Positions 6,967-16,729 are shown, numbered from the stretch's first letter. The stretch is DNA of 40,342 bases from Frankia alni (GCA_026225295.1 JAMFSN010000295.1:1-40342); one strand, 5' to 3'. Numbers and translations are program-made. The notes: generated from the sequence alone by a model not told the origin.

Positions 6967-7770
6967 TCAGCCCTGGAAGCCGGCGTCGACCGGCAGGACC
7001 GTGCCGGTGACCGCTCCGGCGGCCGGGGAACACAACCAGGCGACCGCCGCGGCGACCTCGGCCGGGTCCAGCAACCGACGTTGCAGGGCGTGGTCGGCGA
7101 ACGATTCGACTCCCGCGAGGCCGTAGATCCGGGCTGTCTCGGCGAGCATCGTCGTGTCCATCGAGCCGGGACAGACGACATTCGCGGTCACCCGGGTCCC
7201 GACCAGGTCGGCGGCCAGCCCCCGGACCAGCCCGACCACCCCGTGCTTGGCGGCGCAGTAGGCGGCCAGACCGTACAGCCCGCGGGTCCCGGCGGCCGAC
7301 GAGACCGCCACGAAGCGGCCGGCGGGCGCGTTCCTGATCGCGGGCAGGGCTGCCCGGACCAGGTGGAACACGCCGTCCAGGGCGACGGCATTGACGGTCC
7401 GCCAGGTCTCGTCGTCGGTCTCCCACAACGGTCGGCCGCCGGCGATGACGCCCGCGACGGCCACCGCCACGTCCAGGCGGCCGAATTCCCGCAGGGCGAG
7501 CGCCGCCGCCGCGTCGAGTTCACCCTGCTCGCGCACGTCGGCCCGGATCGCGATCGCCTGTTGGCAACCGGCCGCCACCGCGTCGAGGTCCGCTTTGGTC
7601 GAGTTCGGGTAGCCGTCGGCGGGGTGGTGGTCGGCCGGCTTGTCGAGGGCGATGTCGGTTGCGATGTCGGTGAGGACGAGGCGGAAGCCGGCCGCGTCGA
7701 GCGCGGCGGCGACGGCCGCGCCGAGCCCCCGGCCGGCTCCGGTCACCAGCGCGACGGGGGCGTCATCCAT
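6967..7770 (-). CDS. SDR oxidoreductase of the mycofactocin-associated type
   Basis: A 267-residue short-chain dehydrogenase with the NAD-binding motif TGAGRGLG (10-17), AVAG (105-108), N127, S157/S158 and the catalytic YxxxK (Y171, K175). Between beta-strand 2 (LVLTDIA) and the ADVR segment it has about 40 extra residues (37-75, including [18 protein letters not shown]). That insertion characterises the actinobacterial SDR groups that depend on or accompany mycofactocin, where NADH stays bound and mycofactocin takes the electrons. Its start overlaps the end of mftE by 8 bp, so the two are translated together. The substrate is unknown (alcohols or terpenoid-like alcohols in relatives). An ordinary 3-oxoacyl-ACP-reductase-like role is the main alternative. 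Confidence 0.82.
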
Positions 7771-8506
7771 CCGGCTCTCCTTCGTATGCCGTTGGGGCCG
7801 GGTCCCGGGCCGCGACCGCGGCCACCAGGTCGTTCCGCAGGTCGGTGAACAGCCGTTCTCCTTCGGCGGCCGAGGCGCCGGCCGGGTCGCCGAGCACGCC
7901 GTTCGGACTCAGGGCCCGGACCCCGTGCCGGACGAGCTCCGCGACCGTCGGTGGCGGTGACGGCCCGGCGGCCGCCGCGCCCGACCGGACCAGGCCCGGC
8001 GCCAGGTGCAGCATCAACGACGTCTCGTCCCGGCCGGCATGCTGTCCGCCGCGCCCCGCGGTCGAGGGTCGCGGCGCCCACACCAGCACCCGCCGGCCTT
8101 CAGCGGCGAGCAGTCGCGCGGCCCGGCCGACCGCCACCGCGTTGCCACCGTGCCCGTTGACCAGGACGATCCCTCGGGCGGTGGCGTCCAGCGAGCGGAC
8201 GAGTTCGACCACCGCCAGTTCCAGCACCGCGGTGCCGAGCGACATCGTCGCCGGGAATCCGGCATGCTCGCCGCTCGCGCCGTAAGCCAGCGCGGGCGCG
8301 ACGAGCACATCGGGACGGTGGGCGGCCAGCGCGGCGGCCAATGCCGCGGCGACGATCGTGTCGGTGCCGGCGGGCAGGTGCGGGCCGTGCTGTTCGGTGC
8401 TCCCGAGGGGGAGCGCGACCAGCGGCAGCGCTTCCCTGGCGGGCCCGGCCAGCTCCGGCCACGTCAGCCGATCCAGCCGCCGCTCCCCATCGGCCTCCGC
8501 GTCCAT
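7763..8506 (-). CDS. mftE: mycofactocin maturation peptidase MftE (creatininase family)
   Basis: A 247-residue creatininase-fold metalloprotein. Metal-ligand motifs are all present: GSTEQHGPH (E38, H40), TDT (D49), VNGHGGN (H119) and GRDETS (E161). The segments APALAYGASGEHAGF and NGVLGDPAGASAAEGERLF match MftE rather than creatininase proper. In the known pathway MftE cleaves the MftC-modified MftA peptide, releasing the C-terminal Val-Tyr-derived part that MftD oxidises. I chose ATG 8506; the frame is open to 8626, but the extra 40 residues are Arg/Gly/Pro-rich and unlike the family. No strong ribosome binding site is seen. It overlaps the mycofactocin-type SDR gene. mftA, mftB, mftC and mftD are absent from this window. 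Confidence 0.85.
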   Translation of the reverse strand: MDAEADGERRLDRLTWPELAGPAREALPLVALPLGSTEQHGPHLPAGTDTIVAAALAAALAAHRPDVLVAPALAYGASGEHAGFPATMSLGTAVLELAVVELVRSLDATARGIVLVNGHGGNAVAVGRAARLLAAEGRRVLVWAPRPSTAGRGGQHAGRDETSLMLHLAPGLVRSGAAAAGPSPPPTVAELVRHGVRALSPNGVLGDPAGASAAEGERLFTDLRNDLVAAVAARDPAPTAYEGEPDG

Positions 8507-8700
8507 GACCCCATCTAAGCCGTCCGCCGGGCCGGCCGGGCTTCCCGCTCGGGTGGCCCGGGTCCGACCGGTCGACTCGGATCTCGGCGCCGCGGGCCCT
8601 CGGATTTCCCGGCGAACTGCCCTCATGTTTCTCCTTGAACGGGCCTCACGTTTCGTAATGGATCACGTCGAGGCCGCAGTTCCGCAGGTAGGCTACGTGG

Positions 8701-10005
8701 GTGGCTGAGCCGCTGGTACGCCTTGCCCCCCGGCGGATGGAAGCCGTCGTCGAGGCACTGGCGCGGGACGAACCGGTGATCGTCCTGACCGGCCCACGGA
8801 CCGTCGGCAAGAGCACGCTGCTTGCGGAGTTGGCGCGCCGCTGGGACCGGGAGGTGCTCGATCTCGACGACCTGACCACGCGGCAGGTCGTCGCGGACAA
8901 CCTCGCGCTGTAGGCGGCCGGCCCGCGTCCGGTCCTGATCGACGGGTTTCAGGTTCTCCCGGACCTGCTTGACGCGATCAAAGCGGAACTGAACCGCGAG
9001 ACCGCGCCGGGTCGATTCGTTCTCACGGGTTCCACGCGTTACTCAACCCTTCCGCGAGCGGCCCAGTCGTTGACCGGTCGCGTGCACGTGATGACGGTCT
9101 GGCCGCTTTCCCAGGGGGAGATCGACGGCCGTCACGAACGGTTCGTCGAGCGACTGCTGACCGAGCCGGAATCGCTGGCCGACCAGGAGCTGTCCAGGAC
9201 GTCCCGGGACGACTACGCCGACCGTGTCCTCACCGGCGGCCTTCCGTCCGCGCTGCGTCGCACGAGTGTCCCGGCCCGTATGCGCTGGTTCTCCGACTAC
9301 GTGCAGCTCGTGATTGAGCGCGACGTGCTGGACATCCGAAAAATCAAGCAGCGGGAGGTACTTCCCCTGTTCCTCCGCCGACTAGCGGCCCAGACCGGGC
9401 AGCTGCTCAACATCAGGCGGGCGGGAGCCGAAGCCGGCCTGAGCTCGGCCACCGCCGAGGACTACGCACAGCTGCTGGAAGCGGTCTTCCTGGTTCATCG
9501 GCTGCCGGCGTGGGGGACGACGCTCGCGGCGCGGGTCAACCGGCTACCGAAGCTTCACCTCATGGACACCGGGCTGGGCGGCAGCCTGCTCGGCATCACG
9601 ACCCGGGGAATCGAGCGTCGAATCCCCGCCGCTATGAGCGAGTTTGGCCACCTCCTCGAAACGTTCGTCGTCAACGAGATCCTCAAGCAGGCGGAATGGG
9701 TCGACACCCCGTTGCGCTTTGGGCATTTCCGCACCCCGGAAAATCTTGAAGTTGATCTGGTGATCGAAAATGCCGAGAACGACGTATTCGCGGTGGAGGT
9801 GAAGGCCGGGTCGAGCTATCGGTCCGACGACCTGCGCGGGTTGATCCATCTGCGGGATCGTCTGGGCGACCGCTTCGGGGCCGGGGTGCTTGCCTATACG
9901 GGGGACCGGGCCGCGCGGGTGAGCGACCGGATCTATCTGGTGCCGATCGACAGTTTGTGGCAGGACCGGCTACGGCCGGGCGTCGGTCCGGCCTCACCGC
10001 CGTGA
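8701..10005 (+). pseudogene. DUF4143-type AAA ATPase gene interrupted by an in-frame TAG
   Basis: One frame runs from GTG 8701 to the TGA at 10003-10005 and would encode about 433 residues, the normal size for this family. It is broken by TAG at 8911-8913 (codon 71). Before it: Walker A GPRTVGKST (31-39). After it: PVLIDGFQ, FVLTGSTRY, LTGRVHVMTVWPLSQGEI, then the DUF4143 part with ...FRTPENLEVDLVIENAENDVFAVEVKAGSSY, a nuclease-like E-D-ExK region. The Walker B Glu of the usual LIDEFQ is Gly here, a second damaging change. Everything after the stop remains open, so decay looks recent, unless the amber is suppressed or is a sequencing error. A start with AGGTAGG at 8686-8692 is plausible. Such ATPases are often accessory genes of unknown or toxin-like role. 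Confidence 0.85.
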
Positions 10006-10008
10006 CCG

Positions 10009-10416
10009 TCACGCGTCCTCCGGAACGATGGTTGCTCGGGCAAGCTGTGTTCCGCGGGGCGTTCGGGAAGACAGCCCGGCGACGGCCGAGGAGACGTCGT
10101 TGTGCCAGCCGCGCAGCTCGGCGGCCGTCGGGGCGAGCTCGTAGGAGTGGTGGTGGCCGACGCTCGACAACGTCACCCACAGGTGGTTGACGCGCTGGCC
10201 GACCTCGTCGCCGACCACGGTCGGCAGGACGAGCAGCTGGGCCCGGGTCGGGACGCGGGCGATCTCGGGTCGGGTCCGCGCCCAGACCTCGGCCAGGGCG
10301 GTCTCCAGCGCCAGCCGCAGCATCCAGACGCAGGCCCGCGGCCAGAGCCCGCGGGTGCCGCGGACCTCGTCCCGCAGCAGGCGGTCGGTCTCGGCGAGGA
10401 TCTGCTCGGCGTTCAT
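10009..10416 (-). CDS. small partner protein of the Rad50-like ATPase; possible HEPN-like helical domain
   Basis: A 135-residue mostly helical protein with no family name I can give. Its ATG (10416) overlaps the stop of the large ATPase gene as ATGA, so the two are coupled. Features: an amphipathic segment WPRACVWMLRLALETALAEVWART (25-48), TRAQLLVL (57-64), RVNHLWVTLSSVGHHHSYELAP (75-96) and ELRGWHNDV (100-108). The pattern of LALE...TRAQLL...R.N..W...H can be laid over the C-terminal 110 residues of the ATPase, suggesting a shared helical fold, perhaps HEPN-like with the HHH as a candidate active or binding site. I recall similar pairs in other actinomycetes, but no function. The last codons lie within a palindromic repeat also found upstream of the ATPase. 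The open frame upstream of 10416 is not coding. Confidence 0.75.
   Translation of the reverse strand: MNAEQILAETDRLLRDEVRGTRGLWPRACVWMLRLALETALAEVWARTRPEIARVPTRAQLLVLPTVVGDEVGQRVNHLWVTLSSVGHHHSYELAPTAAELRGWHNDVSSAVAGLSSRTPRGTQLARATIVPEDA
10013..10063. repeat. palindromic repeat, copy A, at the 3' end of the two-gene ATPase module
   Basis: A 51-nt element with arms at 10013-10026 and 10049-10062 (outer part GCGTCC..CGGAAC, inner arm GTTCCGCGG.GCGT) around a 22-nt loop. It shares CGGAACGATGGTTGC and GTTCCGCGG.GCGT, in the same order and exact spacing, with copy B at 13119-13169. It overlaps the last codons of the small partner gene. It may be a mobile palindrome, a recombination scar or a shared terminator. 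Confidence 0.55.
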
Positions 10417-12965
10417 GCCGTCCGACGGAGCTGCTCGACGAGCCTTCCGGTGTCCCGGACCAGCGGCTTCATATCGCCGGCGGACTGGCCGTGGGCACCG
10501 GCCCGGACCGCCTGGAAGGTGTCGCCGGCCCACCGACCGATGCGGTTGAGTCGCGGCAGCACGTCCTGGCCCCGGTTCACGTCGTCCAGCAGGGCGAGCG
10601 CGGCCTTCTGATTGGTGGACCGGGCGGCCCACAGCGCCTCGTCGACGTCGACGTGGCGGGCCCCGGCGGCGAGCCGCCGGTTGCGGGTCAGCTCGACGAA
10701 CACCTGCTCCAGGGCGTGCCGGCAGAAGGCCGGGACGAGCATGGTCAGCACGTCGGGCGGGAGATCCGCGGTGAGGGTCAGCGCTCGCGCGTCGTCGAGG
10801 CAGGACGCGACCGGGTCGCGGACCTGCCGTACCTCGACGACGGACCGTTCCCGGCGGACGACTTCGAGCACCTCGGCGCCCAGCTCAAGCCGGCGGGCCG
10901 CCTCGGCCAGGCGGTCGTCGTGGGTGAAGACGATGACCTGATGGCTGGCGGCGACCGTGGCCAGGACCCGGGCCAGCCCGTCGACCTTGGCCGGATCCAT
11001 CGCCTGGACCGGGTCGTCGATGACCAGGAACCGGAACGGGCTGGTCGCGGCCATGGCGCGGGGGAGGAACAGGGCCAGGCCGAGCGCGTGCAGCTCACCC
11101 TGGCTCATCACGCCGAGCGCCGCGCCTTCCACGCCGTCGACGGTCACGTCCACGGCGACCCGGCGGCGGGTGGCGGTGCCCTCGAGGCGGATCGGCCCGA
11201 GATCGACGCTGCTCTCCTGCCGCAGCTGGGCCCAGATGTCGGCTGACTGCTCGGCGAAGGGCGCGAGGCGCTCCTCCCGCAGCGCCTGAGTGGTGGCCCG
11301 CAGCCAGGTCAGGGCGGCCTTCACCGCCGCGAGGGCCGGTCCGTCGGCGGTCACGGACCGGGCCCGGCCGATCCAACCGGCCACCCGGCCGGCGAGCGGT
11401 TTCCAGGAGGCGTCGAGCATTTCCCGTTCCCGCGCGGCCCGGGCGACGAGGGCGGTGACGGCCTCGACGAGCGGCGGATGGGTGGCCGTCAGGCCGTCGG
11501 CGAGCGCATCCGGGTCCGTCGTGGTCCGCAGCTCGGACCAGGCCCGCCAGTGGTCGCGGGCGGCGTCCGCTTCGGGTTCGGTCAGGACGGTGAGCGCGTC
11601 CGGGGCAGCGGTGAGGAGGGCCCGCGCCGCGTCCCGGGCATCACGCAACCGGGTCCGGGTGGTGACGGCGGCGGCCGCGATCTGCTCCTGCCGGTCGATC
11701 TCGGCGCGGGTGGCCGCCTGCCAGGCCTGATCGAGCCGGCCGGCCCCGCAGACCGGGCACGGGCCGTCCCCGTGGGCTTCGTGATGCTCGAGTGCGCGCC
11801 GCAGCAGATCGGCCAGGCGGGACGCTTCCTCCGGCGGAGTTCCGGCCAGCTGCCGGGCGGCGGCCGCGGCCTCGCGCAGATCGTGGACCTGGGCGTCGAC
11901 GGCGTCCGCGGTCGGCAGCGTGATCGTCGTGAGGTCGGTCAGCGTGCCGGCCGGTTCCGGGTCCGCGGTGCCGGTGGTGATCGACTCGGCGGTGTCCAGA
12001 TCGGGGCGCCGGCCGCCGAGCGCGGCCGCGACCCGGGCGGCCCGCTCGTCCGAGCAGCTCGCGAGGTCCTCCCGGAGCCGGCCGAGGTCCTGCTTGACCG
12101 CCTTCGCGCGGGCATCAAGATCTTTACGGGCCGTGGTCAGGCGCGCTTCGGTGGCGACCAGCTGCTCGAGGCCGAGGATCGCGTGCAGCGCGTCGTACAT
12201 CTCGCTGGGCCGACCGTGTACGAGCTTGCCGAGTTCCGCGTAGGACAGGAAGGGGCGGTAGGTGGCGAGGATGGCCGGCCAGTCCTGGTCGGCGAGCAGC
12301 TCCCGCCGGGCGCCGGCCCGTTGGACCGTGCTGGTCCCGTCCTCGAGGGCGTCGCCGGCCGGCCAGCGCCGCTCGACCGTGACCGGCCGGTGCTCGCCCT
12401 CGACCGTGAGGTCGACCTCGATGTGGGTTTCGGTGTCCTGGCCGGCGTGAAAGTTGCGCCACCCGCCGCGCCAGACGGCGCCGCCGTCCCGGTCGGCCCA
12501 GCGGAAGCTGTCGCCGGTCATCACCAGCTCCGCGGCCTCGGCGAAGCTGGACTTGCCGGAGCCGTTGCGACCCATGACGAGGGTGAGGCCCGGTCCGGGC
12601 CGCAACGGCAGCACCGTCTCGCGCCCGATTCCGCGAAAGCCCTCGACGACCACGGACCGCAGGTAGATACCGGCGATCTCCCCGGGACCGGCCGGGCGGC
12701 GGGCGGACGGCGCGCGGGTCGTCACGGCGCCGTGCAATGCCTCAGCCAGTTGCCGGTCACCTTCGTAGGCCGCGAGCAGCACGTCGGCGACATCGTCGGG
12801 CAGGTCCGCCGCGCAGACCCGGTCGAACAACAGCTCGTACATCGCCAGGCGCGGCGCGTCCATGGCGTCGCCCGCCGTCGCACCGACCCCGGCGCCGGCC
12901 GCCGGGTCGGCGGCCTCGGTGGGCGCCGGGCCTTCGGTCATCGCTTCGGATAGTGCGTCTGCCAT
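10413..12965 (-). CDS. Rad50/SMC-like ATPase with zinc hook and C-terminal helical (HEPN-like?) domain
   Basis: An 850-residue protein. Residues 1-95 are an N-terminal extension. The ABC head follows: YLRSVVVEGFRGIGRETVLPL, Walker A GRNGSGKSS (132-140), then coiled-coil-like arms (270-310, 360-395, 410-450, 495-570) meeting at a Rad50-type zinc hook CPVC (403-406). The second head lobe has the signature SQGE (621-624), Walker B FLVIDDP (646-652), the D-loop region and the switch His in FTHDD (681). Unlike Rad50, about 110 residues follow the head (740-850, FCRHALEQVFVELTRNRR...VRAGAHGQ), resembling the small partner encoded next. RloC-type anticodon nucleases also join a zinc-hook ATPase to a nuclease tail, which is an analogy only. 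The ribosome binding site GGGGGG (minus strand, 12973-12978) sits 7 bases before the ATG. Probably a DNA-end or DNA-state sensor in defence or repair. Confidence 0.85.
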   Translation of the reverse strand: MADALSEAMTEGPAPTEAADPAAGAGVGATAGDAMDAPRLAMYELLFDRVCAADLPDDVADVLLAAYEGDRQLAEALHGAVTTRAPSARRPAGPGEIAGIYLRSVVVEGFRGIGRETVLPLRPGPGLTLVMGRNGSGKSSFAEAAELVMTGDSFRWADRDGGAVWRGGWRNFHAGQDTETHIEVDLTVEGEHRPVTVERRWPAGDALEDGTSTVQRAGARRELLADQDWPAILATYRPFLSYAELGKLVHGRPSEMYDALHAILGLEQLVATEARLTTARKDLDARAKAVKQDLGRLREDLASCSDERAARVAAALGGRRPDLDTAESITTGTADPEPAGTLTDLTTITLPTADAVDAQVHDLREAAAAARQLAGTPPEEASRLADLLRRALEHHEAHGDGPCPVCGAGRLDQAWQAATRAEIDRQEQIAAAAVTTRTRLRDARDAARALLTAAPDALTVLTEPEADAARDHWRAWSELRTTTDPDALADGLTATHPPLVEAVTALVARAAREREMLDASWKPLAGRVAGWIGRARSVTADGPALAAVKAALTWLRATTQALREERLAPFAEQSADIWAQLRQESSVDLGPIRLEGTATRRRVAVDVTVDGVEGAALGVMSQGELHALGLALFLPRAMAATSPFRFLVIDDPVQAMDPAKVDGLARVLATVAASHQVIVFTHDDRLAEAARRLELGAEVLEVVRRERSVVEVRQVRDPVASCLDDARALTLTADLPPDVLTMLVPAFCRHALEQVFVELTRNRRLAAGARHVDVDEALWAARSTNQKAALALLDDVNRGQDVLPRLNRIGRWAGDTFQAVRAGAHGQSAGDMKPLVRDTGRLVEQLRRTA

Positions 12966-13169: not shown

Positions 13170-13321
13170 CCGTCCGCCGCGGCCCTTGCGAATCCGTCGA
13201 ACCGTGTCGGGGATCGTGCCCCGATAGGCAAACCATGTGACGCTCCGGCAGCGGGGCGCTACCGTTGTTTCATGCCTTTCGTCCGGTTCCGGGCGGTCGC
13301 GCGCGGGTCGGGAGTCCGCGG

Positions 13322-14923
13322 GTGACCGGCCGTCCGGCCGACTGGGCGGTGCTCGATCTGTCCGGCGATCCGACGCCCGGCGCGCCGTTGGACATCCGCG
13401 ATCTGGCCGGTCGGCTGCTGCGGTTGGCCGCCGACGCGGCCGATGCGTCGGTGCGGTTCCGTCGGGCCGGCGCCGACGAGGCGGTCGCCTCGTGGACCGG
13501 TCTGTCGGGCGATGCGTATCGCGCCGAGATCGGCGCCTTCCCCAGTGATCTCGACAAGTTGTCGGCGTCCTACGGGATGGCCGGCCGGGCGTTGACCGCC
13601 TACGCGGGCCGGCTCGACGGTGCCCAGACCCAGGCGGACGTGGCCCTGGCCCGTGGCCGCGATGCGCGGGCCCGGCTCGTCTCGGCGCAGAACGGACTCT
13701 CGGTGGCGACGTCGGTCGAGGTCACCACGTCGCGGGCGCTGACGGGTGTCCGCAGTGCGATGCCCGACCCGGCCACGGTGACCGCCGCCGTGCGGAACCA
13801 CGCCGCGGCGGCGACCCGTCTGGCCCAGTCGCGCGGCGCGGTCGAGGCGGTCGAAGGTGAGCTCGACGCGGCGCGGCGGTTGGCCCTGGCGGCCCGGTCC
13901 TTACGGGAGGAGGCCGAGGACGCGGCCGCCTGGGAGATCCACGCGGCCTCCCACGCTGGAATCCGGAACAAGAAATGGTGGCAGAAGCTCCCCGGGGAGC
14001 TGGCCCGGGGCTGGCACATCCTGGTCAAGGTCGCGAAGATTGTCGTCCTGGTCCTGGGTGTTATCGCACTGATAATCGGCGGTCCGGCCGCGTGGATTCT
14101 CTTCGCCGCCGCGCTCATTGTGCTGACCGACACGCTCATCAAATACTCCGAAGGAAAAGCGAGTATCTGGGCGGTGGCCCTCACTGCGCTGGCCTGCATT
14201 CCCGGCACCAAGGGACTGACCAGTCTGGGCGAGATTTCGTCGGCGATCCGTGAGGGGGAAGGTCTGCTCGGCGTCGGCCGGCTGATCGCCGTCGGCGGCC
14301 GGACTCAGCTCGCTGACATGGTTTCAGCGGTCCGGGGCGTCGGCCGTGGGCTGACCACCATCGTCAGGGGGTTGCCCGGAGCACTGGCCGACTCGATCCG
14401 CATCGTCGAGACGGCCGGCGCGGACGGTTCCCGCCTGATCGCCGGCATCGTCGGCGACCCGACCCCGCTCCGCAACCTCCTGATGTCAGCCATCTCAGAC
14501 GGAGGGAGTGCCGGCGGACTGCCGGCTGGATGGAAATCCAGCGTCACCGCCTCCGAGTTCAATCTTATGAAGGGTGGCGTGGGCATTCTGTCGACGCTGG
14601 ATCGGGACGGCATTCTGGAACTCGCGGTCGACGCGGGCCCCGCTTCCGAGCTGCGTGGACACGTCCTGTTCGATGCGGCCATGGCGCACTTCGGGGACGC
14701 CGTGAAGGTGGTGCAGGGAGCGTGGTTCTACGGGGACAACCTCGGGAAAGTGAACGAACTCGTGGCGAGCGGTGTCGATCTCGAACGCGCGATCACAGGT
14801 ACCTGGACCGCGACGCAGGCGGCGCGCCACGGGTTCTCGATCTCGACGGTTGTCGAGAGCGAGCTTGAATCGCCTGGCCTATACGATCACGTGATCGCTC
14901 ACTTCACTCGACCGGGAGGATGA
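13322..14923 (+). CDS. WXG-like polymorphic toxin candidate with membrane segments
   Basis: A 533-residue protein. The N-terminal 200 residues are helical and WXG100-like, with SWTGLSGDAYRAEIGAF as the helix turn, a type VII secretion-type leader domain. Two or three hydrophobic helices follow (about 230-285: VKVAKIVVLVLGVIALIIGG, AAWILFAAALIVL, IWAVALTALACIPG). The C-terminal 110 residues (GVGILSTLDRDGILELAVDAG...TWTATQAARHGFSISTVVESELESPGLYDHVIAHFTRPGG) look like a separate effector-type domain that I recall at the ends of other actinobacterial polymorphic toxins, without a known activity. GTG 13322 has GGGAG (13310-13314) seven bases upstream; the frame is open to 13265 but lacks a site there. 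The small downstream gene overlaps or abuts it, as in toxin-immunity pairs. No type VII secretion genes are in the window. Confidence 0.7.
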   Translation: MTGRPADWAVLDLSGDPTPGAPLDIRDLAGRLLRLAADAADASVRFRRAGADEAVASWTGLSGDAYRAEIGAFPSDLDKLSASYGMAGRALTAYAGRLDGAQTQADVALARGRDARARLVSAQNGLSVATSVEVTTSRALTGVRSAMPDPATVTAAVRNHAAAATRLAQSRGAVEAVEGELDAARRLALAARSLREEAEDAAAWEIHAASHAGIRNKKWWQKLPGELARGWHILVKVAKIVVLVLGVIALIIGGPAAWILFAAALIVLTDTLIKYSEGKASIWAVALTALACIPGTKGLTSLGEISSAIREGEGLLGVGRLIAVGGRTQLADMVSAVRGVGRGLTTIVRGLPGALADSIRIVETAGADGSRLIAGIVGDPTPLRNLLMSAISDGGSAGGLPAGWKSSVTASEFNLMKGGVGILSTLDRDGILELAVDAGPASELRGHVLFDAAMAHFGDAVKVVQGAWFYGDNLGKVNELVASGVDLERAITGTWTATQAARHGFSISTVVESELESPGLYDHVIAHFTRPGG

Positions 14924-14925
14924 CG

Positions 14926-15180
14926 GTGTCCACTGATCAGTGGCCTGGAGAGCTACACCGCCTCGCGGAAAATCGTGACGCGGATATTGTCGACATTCTC
15001 AATGCTATGGCTGCTCGCCACGATGAGTTCCGGATCCAGTCGATGGTGGCTGCGGCGGCCGTGCGAGAGGGAACCGGAATATCGGTGACCTTGGCGAATC
15101 CTGTGATTGGGTGGCTCAAAGGTCAGGTCAGCGACGAGAAACTGCGGCGTCTGGTGCCGCGCTCCTCGTTCAGGATGTAG
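14926..15180 (+). CDS. small protein following the WXG-like toxin; immunity candidate
   Basis: An 84-residue soluble protein (STDQWPGELHRLAENRDADIVDILNAMAARHDEF...SVTLANPVIGWLKGQVSDEKLRRLV). It has no signal peptide, membrane segment or recognised domain. I prefer GTG 14926 because GGGAGG (14914-14919) lies six bases upstream; the in-frame ATG at 14920 would form ATGA with the toxin stop but leaves no spacing. Its codons are less GC-rich than its neighbours, consistent with transfer. Its position directly after a toxin-like gene is the only basis for the immunity idea. Confidence 0.6.
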   Translation: MSTDQWPGELHRLAENRDADIVDILNAMAARHDEFRIQSMVAAAAVREGTGISVTLANPVIGWLKGQVSDEKLRRLVPRSSFRM

Positions 15181-15235
15181 GGCCGGGGCGGCCGAAGTCG
15201 TTCGGTCTGGGCCCATCCTTCGTAGGTTGGCTTCC

Positions 15236-16729
15236 GTGCCGACCGATGTACCGCTGCCGTCCGGGTTCCGCGTCCAGTCCGACCCGGACCTGGCCGTGCG
15301 GGCCGCCGACCGGGTGGTCATCGGCGGATCGCCGCTGCGGATGCTGAAGCTGTCGGCGGCCGGGATCGACGTCGTGCAGCGCCTGCTCGACGGCGAGACA
15401 GTCGGCGCGTGCGGTCCTGGCGCCGGGGCCATCGCCCGCCGGCTGGTCGCCGGCGGGCTCGCCCATCCGCTCCCGCCGGCCGGGGGCGGCCCGCCACCGG
15501 CTGACGTGACGATCGCGATCCCGGTCCGGGACCGGGCCGCCGATCTCGCCACCCTGCTCACAGCGCTCGACCGGGACGGCACCGCGGCCGGCGTCCACGA
15601 GGTGCTGGTGGTTGACGACGGTTCCGTCGACGACAGCGGCGCGGTGGCCCACCACGCCGGCGCGCGGGTACTGCGGCACGACACCCCCGGCGGCCCCGGC
15701 CGGGCCCGGGGGACCGCCCTGCGCGCGGCGACCACCCCGGTCGTGGCCTTCCTCGATTCCGACGTCGTGCCGACCCCGGGCTGGCTCGAACTGCTGCTGG
15801 CCCACCTGGCCGATCCGTGCGTCGCGGCCGTGGCCCCGCGCGTCGCGTCCCGGCCGGGCCGCTCGGTCCGCGAACGCTACGAACACGCCCGTTCCCCCAT
15901 CGACATGGGCAGCCGGCCGGCCGCGGCCCGCCTCGGGGGCCGGCTGTCCTACGTCCCGGCCGCTGCCCTGGTGCTGCGGCGGGTCGTGGACGGAACGCCG
16001 GTCGAGATCGACCCGGCCCTGCGCTACGGCGAGGATGTCGACCTCGTGTGGCGGCTCGTCGCCGCCGGCTGGGTCGTCCGGTACGAGCCGGCCGCGACCG
16101 TCACCCACCGGCCACGCGATTCCTGGCGCGGTTGGGCCGCTCAGCGGGTCGGCTACGGCTCGTCGGCCGCCGGGCTGGCCCGGCGCCACCCGGCGCCGCT
16201 GCGGCCCCTGGCCGGCGCGGGCCCGACCCTCGCCACCTGGGCCCTCGCCGCGGCGGGCCGGCCGGTGGCGGCGGCCACCCTGGCCGGGATCGTGACCGGC
16301 CGGGTCGCCCGGCGGTTCACGGCCGGGGGACTGGCCGGACCCGCGACGCCCTGGATCGCCGCGAGCCTCGTGACCCGGGGCCACCTTTACACCGCCCGCG
16401 CGGCAACCGACCTGATCCGGCGCGGCTGGCTACCCCTCGTACCGCTGGCCTTCATCACCGGTCCGAGAGCGACCAAGGCCTGGGCGTTGCTCGCCGTCGC
16501 GGCCCTGCCGGCCCTGCGCGACCACCGGGCCGAACAGCCGGAAATGGGGATATTTCCCTACGGCCTCCTCCGCCTCGTCGACGACGCGGCCTACTGCGTG
16601 GGGGTTTGGCGGGGCTGCTGGGCCGAGCGCACCGTGCGGCCGCTGGTGCCGGCGGTGAAGTGGCCGGCCGCCATGGTGCAACGACCTTCCCGACCCCCCT
16701 TCCGATCGCGGATACGCTCGAGGGTGTGA
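15236..16729 (+). CDS. mftF: mycofactocin glycosyltransferase MftF
   Basis: A 497-residue GT2 protein resembling MftF of mycobacteria throughout. The N-terminus PLPSGFRVQSDPDLAV...VIGGSPLRMLKLS is the family's own short domain. The glycosyltransferase core has VTIAIPVRDRAADL, VLVVDDGSVDD, AFLDSDVVPTPGW (DxD 174-176), VAPRVASRPGRSVRERYEHARSPIDMG, and GEDVDLVWRLVAAGW. The end is hydrophobic with DDAAYCVGVWRG, matching the DDLAYGLGLW end of mycobacterial MftF. MftF adds a beta-1,4-linked glucose chain to premycofactocin, keeping the cofactor in the cell. GTG 15236 has AGGTTGG (15223-15229) upstream; the longer open frame from 15107 is unlikely. Its stop overlaps the next gene's start as GTGA. 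Other mft genes are not adjacent. Confidence 0.87.
   Translation: MPTDVPLPSGFRVQSDPDLAVRAADRVVIGGSPLRMLKLSAAGIDVVQRLLDGETVGACGPGAGAIARRLVAGGLAHPLPPAGGGPPPADVTIAIPVRDRAADLATLLTALDRDGTAAGVHEVLVVDDGSVDDSGAVAHHAGARVLRHDTPGGPGRARGTALRAATTPVVAFLDSDVVPTPGWLELLLAHLADPCVAAVAPRVASRPGRSVRERYEHARSPIDMGSRPAAARLGGRLSYVPAAALVLRRVVDGTPVEIDPALRYGEDVDLVWRLVAAGWVVRYEPAATVTHRPRDSWRGWAAQRVGYGSSAAGLARRHPAPLRPLAGAGPTLATWALAAAGRPVAAATLAGIVTGRVARRFTAGGLAGPATPWIAASLVTRGHLYTARAATDLIRRGWLPLVPLAFITGPRATKAWALLAVAALPALRDHRAEQPEMGIFPYGLLRLVDDAAYCVGVWRGCWAERTVRPLVPAVKWPAAMVQRPSRPPFRSRIRSRV

Follow-up and report, generated by a model that had tools for sequence, protein, structure and literature searches.

A zinc-hook Rad50-like ATPase and its co-encoded HEPN-fold protein in Actinomycetota: a candidate two-gene, RloC-like defence system

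A gene pair in Frankia alni, encoding a zinc-hook Rad50-like ATPase and a small protein with a predicted HEPN fold, belongs to a conserved two-gene family, carried by soil actinobacteria, that is probably a defensive, RloC-like abortive-infection system, in which a putative HEPN ribonuclease (RNase) would be divided over two proteins, the ATPase and a second subunit. The pair lies at positions 10009 to 12965 of the stretch of DNA that was analysed, hereafter the window (40,342 nt; Frankia alni GCA_026225295.1 JAMFSN010000295.1:1-40342). A more specific version of this reading, which we hold only tentatively, is that one half of the RNase is fused to the Rad50-like ATPase and the other half is a free subunit, that the two act as a nuclease solely when joined in an ATPase-gated heterodimer, and that the family is the actinobacterial counterpart of RloC. 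We did not find the pair described in the open-access literature, and an earlier in-silico mention may exist. Searches of Pfam, NCBIfam and PADLOC assigned neither protein to a named system, in agreement with an earlier note, written from the sequence alone, whose author knew no name for the pair.

Anatomy of the gene pair

The first gene (P0001; 10413 to 12965, minus strand, as are all features of the pair) encodes an ATPase of 850 residues with a bipartite head and a CxxC motif within a coiled coil, which defines it as a zinc-hook Rad50/SMC-like ABC ATPase. Translation of the open reading frame placed Walker A (GRNGSGKSS, residues 132-140; 12546 to 12572), the CPVC zinc hook (residues 403-406; 11748 to 11759), the ABC signature SQGE (residues 621-624), Walker B (FLVIDDP, residues 646-652) and the switch His (residue 682) where the earlier note had located them, and its coordinates for the module, 10009 to 12965, were also right. 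The region from the signature to the IDDP of Walker B (residues 649-652) spans 11010 to 11105. In an alignment of 94 sequences the hook Cys, Walker A, SQGE, both Asp residues in IDDP and the switch His show 96 to 100% conservation (C403 100%, C406 99%, Walker A 96 to 99%; S621 to E624, D650 and D651 invariant). Walker B carries an Asp in place of the usual catalytic Glu of ABC ATPases, and the RloC proteins used for comparison share this DDP. The only families to exceed the Pfam cut-offs were of the ABC/SMC type (SMC_N, 8e-16; AAA_23, 1e-9; and AAA_21), and NCBIfam and PADLOC returned generic ABC-ATPase matches only. An AF2 model of the protein (pLDDT 83.6) has long helices on either side of the CxxC hook and resembles Rad50 heads most closely (Z 26.4, 307 residues, rmsd 3.3). 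Near the N-terminus, a short helical segment at about residues 40-80 (12726 to 12848; modelled helices 31-53, 57-68 and 70-77) is alignable among relatives.

The second gene (P0002; 10416 to 10009) encodes a protein of 135 residues with an LSxxxHHHxYEL motif. Its start overlaps the stop of the ATPase gene by ATGA (10413 to 10416), as had been noted previously, and 57 of 79 relatives offer the same 4-nt overlap.

HEPN domains and their conserved residues

The structural model of the partner is confident (pLDDT 89.2), and a Foldseek search against the PDB returned mostly HEPN proteins as top matches with a probability of 0.97 to 0.98, but with E-values >0.1. VIA Z-scores were highest for 2hsb (12.5; 109 residues aligned, rmsd 2.4), followed by 2q00 (12.0), the HEPN domain of sacsin (11.8), HepT (11.3) and LsoA (10.7), values to be read with the caveat that helical bundles reach middling Z by chance. 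On this modelling, the partner is predicted to have a HEPN fold. No family in Pfam, NCBIfam or PADLOC covers it, and a sequence search of the PDB with the partner profile found nothing relevant. The canonical Rx4-6H motif of HEPN proteins is absent from the partner, in which the residues just before the His vary; its conserved Arg sits in an earlier helix, in an R-x3-E arrangement like that of PrrC/RloC.

The region of the ATPase beyond the head, put at about 110 residues in the earlier note, is in fact about 130 residues long (about 718 to 850), and in the model its helices follow the same order as those of the partner (residues 718-850). With deeper profiles, hhalign aligned the two domains over 108 columns (E 0.0013) and brought both the R-x-A-x-E helix and the later His into register; the score was 24.4, whereas none of 15 column shuffles exceeded 13.6. 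When both domains were aligned jointly (82 sequences), conservation stayed at 90% or more in the R34, A36, E38 and H88 columns. By this sequence evidence the C-terminal domain of the ATPase (about residues 710-850, with R749, E753 and H825; 10416 to 10838) is homologous to the partner, and hence a second HEPN domain. The effector is therefore likely to be a two-domain HEPN module rather than one separate effector under the control of an ATPase, so that the HEPN-like effector envisaged in the earlier note stands as regards the predicted fold of the small protein but not as regards its being the one, separate effector. Pfam searches with 82 members of the two HEPN domains produced scattered chance matches only, and no family claims either domain. 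The nearest approach was to the DUF4145-like HEPN proteins (PF13643), which share an RxALE helix and a later GxxxH, and whose six-sequence profile matched both the partner (E 0.0018) and the C-terminal domain (E 0.0076). However, the match is centred on the R-x-A-L-E helix only, and DUF4145 is absent from the 25 Pfam families listed for the 82 members.

The anticodon-nuclease triad of RloC and PrrC is R-X3-E-X36-52-H, and mutation has shown R692, E696 and H737 of RloC to be required (PMC2610378). In the partner, R34-x3-E38 is followed by H88, and the gap from the E column to the H column is 43 to 52 residues in each of the 95 alignment rows, which is within the published spacing. In the C-terminal domain, R749-x3-E753 is separated from H825 by 68 to 73 residues in all rows but one, outside that range. 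These residues are well conserved in both the partner (R34 98%, E38 100%, H88 89%) and the C-terminal domain (R749 99%, E753 99%, H825 88%; 94 sequences), with the His missing from one or both domains in ~10% of loci. All 10 Lentzea loci have H88 replaced by Arg and H825 replaced by Asp or Glu or missing, the two proteins being altered together; as Lentzea is a single clade, these changes count as one event.

Distribution and genomic neighbourhoods

A scan of 84,980 species genomes yielded the best 80 loci. They belong mostly to Actinomycetota (Nocardia, Lentzea, Micromonospora, Pseudonocardia, Parafrankia, Blastococcus, Actinoplanes, Streptomyces and others), with a few in MAGs labelled Acidobacteria, Spirochaetaceae or Vicinamibacteria. 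Of these 80 independently fetched loci, 79 have the partner gene immediately downstream of the ATPase gene and on its strand, the sole exception being at a contig edge, and the partner gene was present in 29 of 29 loci of a second set from other genomes. The association proposed in the earlier note is thus not due to chance and, since no other neighbourhood gene is constant among the best 80 loci, the ATPase and partner together constitute the unit. Among 296 genomes sampled evenly across the phylum, the ATPase occurs in 15 (5%) and the partner in 18, mostly the same genomes, and a sample of the class contained the ATPase in 55 of 346 genomes (16%), counting in the HEPN-less clade described below. 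Presence is patchy even within the window's own family, where 15 of 35 genomes have the pair. In Nocardia (about 27 species) the pair is in fixed synteny and looks vertically inherited; a cluster of MoxR AAA_5, VWA_CoxE, DUF5682 and DUF5691-SWIM genes accompanies it there (L053 and about 26 other loci, at 1 to 10 kb). The ATPase was found on three plasmid records. Phage records and viral contigs contained no family member, indicating that the pair is not phage cargo.

In a sister clade from one family of genomes in the class, recovered as a single group in a tree of the ATPase core (support 1.0), the ATPase relatives end right after the head. All 11 of these loci examined lack the partner as well as the C-terminal domain, and one sister-clade genome has, elsewhere, a full-length copy of the ATPase with its partner. 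This joint absence means that the C-terminal HEPN domain and the partner come and go together, as a heterodimer would require. The sister-clade loci (L218 to L226, L228 and L229; e.g. L225:4600-6723) adjoin a gene for a SbcC_Walker_B protein of ~1400 aa, with which the HEPN-less ATPase possibly forms a two-SMC complex. MaoC and MurB genes come next in L225.

The near neighbours of the relatives are defence-rich. Cluster analysis placed type I restriction-modification (R-M) genes within 10 kb of 15 of the best 80 loci, in several genera and often divergent from the pair, and HsdR is directly upstream at one locus (L227). Other neighbours include TerB, BrxC/D with a DEAD helicase, GmrSD, PLD-ResIII-DUF3427, and a DNA methylase with a UvrD-PDDEXK protein. 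In a matched comparison at a threshold of 1e-15, 95 flanking genes from 16 loci matched 190 PADLOC models compared with 19 for 95 control genes, model counts that overstate gene counts because related models match one gene. The control genes came from 14 other regions of actinobacterial genomes, one of which happened to contain DISARM genes. The accessory island suggested in the earlier note is accordingly borne out by the neighbourhoods of relatives, but the argument is weak in the window itself because the pair is surrounded there by mycofactocin genes, a DUF4143 gene that is broken, and what may be a polymorphic toxin. The DUF4143 protein (9070 to 10005, plus strand) is without an N-terminal AAA match and probably broken, and a 552-aa protein without a Pfam match (13265 to 14923, plus strand) resembles a secreted polymorphic toxin. 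The mycofactocin biosynthesis genes MftE (7763 to 8626, minus strand) and MftF (15107 to 16729, plus strand) flank the pair region and are divergent, about 6.5 kb apart. In some genera the ATPase gene is preceded, immediately or at a short distance, by a gene of the same orientation for a DEDD exonuclease (with BRCT) or an RNase H-like protein (L041:7935-9308, L045:9127-9966, L074:9051-9878). Lentzea loci (L047, L056, L062 and others, 12.5 to 16.3 kb) have genes for a metallophosphatase and AAA_27 (SbcD/SbcC-like) directly after the pair, in the same genomes that lack both HEPN His. Among the best 80 loci, SbcD/SbcC-like genes are adjacent only in Lentzea, and in general no Mre11/SbcD-type nuclease gene travels with the pair.

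The chief rival to a defensive role is a DNA-repair or maintenance complex, in which a Rad50-like end sensor would be combined with HEPN domains whose task is structural rather than catalytic, namely holding a protein partner or binding nucleic acid. We consider such a complex unlikely. The resemblance of the ATPase head to Rad50, the fixed synteny in Nocardia, the His-less Lentzea copies beside SbcC/SbcD-like genes, and the pairing of the HEPN-less sister clade with a large SbcC-like protein are all consistent with it. It is less easily reconciled with the patchy presence of the pair in the window's own family, with the defence-rich near neighbours, or with the general absence of an accompanying Mre11-type nuclease. 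The retention of the Arg and Glu (98 to 100%) and of the His (88 to 89%) in the two HEPN domains also suggests catalysis, judging by conservation.

Proposed mode of action and relation to known systems

In the RloC-like abortive-infection system that we favour, the zinc-hook Rad50-like ATPase would serve as both sensor and gate, and its C-terminal HEPN domain would dimerise with the partner to form a heterodimeric HEPN ribonuclease. The ATPase head would keep this RNase module inactive in the uninfected cell. The trigger may be DNA ends, or loss of function of a neighbouring restriction system during phage attack, upon which an ATP-driven rearrangement of head and hook would set the RNase free. 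The freed RNase would cut tRNA or another essential RNA, and this cutting would stop the infection with the cell being sacrificed, presumably as a protection against phage. As such a system, this unnamed and widespread two-gene family would join the small group of SMC/Rad50-type immune ATPases. Its members are found in Nocardia, Streptomyces, Micromonospora, Lentzea and relatives of Frankia, in which defence systems are poorly mapped, and two extra HMMs in current defence finders would detect them. With its halves separate and a natural clade without both, the pair also offers a clean test case for how a break-sensing ATPase turns on a HEPN RNase.

Two homologous HEPN domains encoded by translationally coupled genes of one operon might alternatively point to a toxin-antitoxin-like pair, in which one HEPN domain would be a toxic RNase, the other, as its inactive copy, would keep it in check, and the ATPase would act as a regulator. 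HepT-MntA, a HEPN toxin with an antitoxin encoded by a second gene (HEPN-MNT), is among the best structural matches and has its HEPN fold in common with the partner (Z about 11), but the pair has an ABC ATPase instead of a nucleotidyltransferase. Both domains retain the Arg, the Glu and usually the His, so that neither looks generally inactive, and they are lost or altered jointly, not singly, which makes this explanation quite improbable.

The split, ATPase-gated RNase that we prefer most resembles RloC, with which the ATPase shares its order of parts (head, coiled coil with CxxC hook, head, C-terminal HEPN domain) and an IDDP-type Walker B, and whose R-x3-E...H spacing is matched by the partner. 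RloC is, however, a single protein, whereas the second HEPN domain of the pair is the product of a separate, always co-encoded gene, and neither the ATPase sequence nor the HEPN sequences place the pair in RloC. PrrC is likewise an ABC ATPase with a HEPN domain and is linked to type I R-M loci, but it is one protein without a zinc hook, and type I R-M genes occur within 10 kb of only the 15 of 80 pairs noted above. Lamassu LmuB/LmuC also combines a Rad50-like and often zinc-hooked ATPase with a small protein; the ATPase of the pair, by contrast, carries a HEPN domain of its own. We rejected a Lamassu identity, as the pair is not accompanied by a gene for the effector LmuA and LmuC models do not recognise the partner, and the mad3 match was dropped as generic. 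That the family is an outlying branch of a named system (RloC/PDC-S06, Lamassu LmuB-LmuC or MADS mad3), at the very limit of what the models detect, is very unlikely despite the PADLOC matches of the ATPase to mad3 (4e-21), LmuB (4e-15) and PDC-S06 (9e-12) and its RloC-like order of parts, because the mad3 match is unspecific (4 of 95 control genes match too), the PDC-S06 match of four family ATPases is local (about 65 to 90 residues) when RloC proteins match full length (1e-256 and 1e-269), the partner matches no PADLOC model, and RloC and PrrC are single proteins.

The RloC proteins used for these comparisons came from genomes in the phylum of a Spirochaetaceae MAG. PF13166, the RloC/PrrC-type family, was found in none of 148 genomes of the class, and the Pfam model AAA_13 scored the ATPase at 14.2 bits, below its cut-off of 36. 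Profiles of the RloC HEPN domain did not match the partner (score 8 to 9, equal to shuffles) and gave a weak, motif-only match to the C-terminal domain of the ATPase (15.0, with shuffles reaching no more than 10.8). On viral contigs (IMG/VR; L162 to L181), many RloC-type proteins retain RRILE but no longer have the downstream Ser-His motif.
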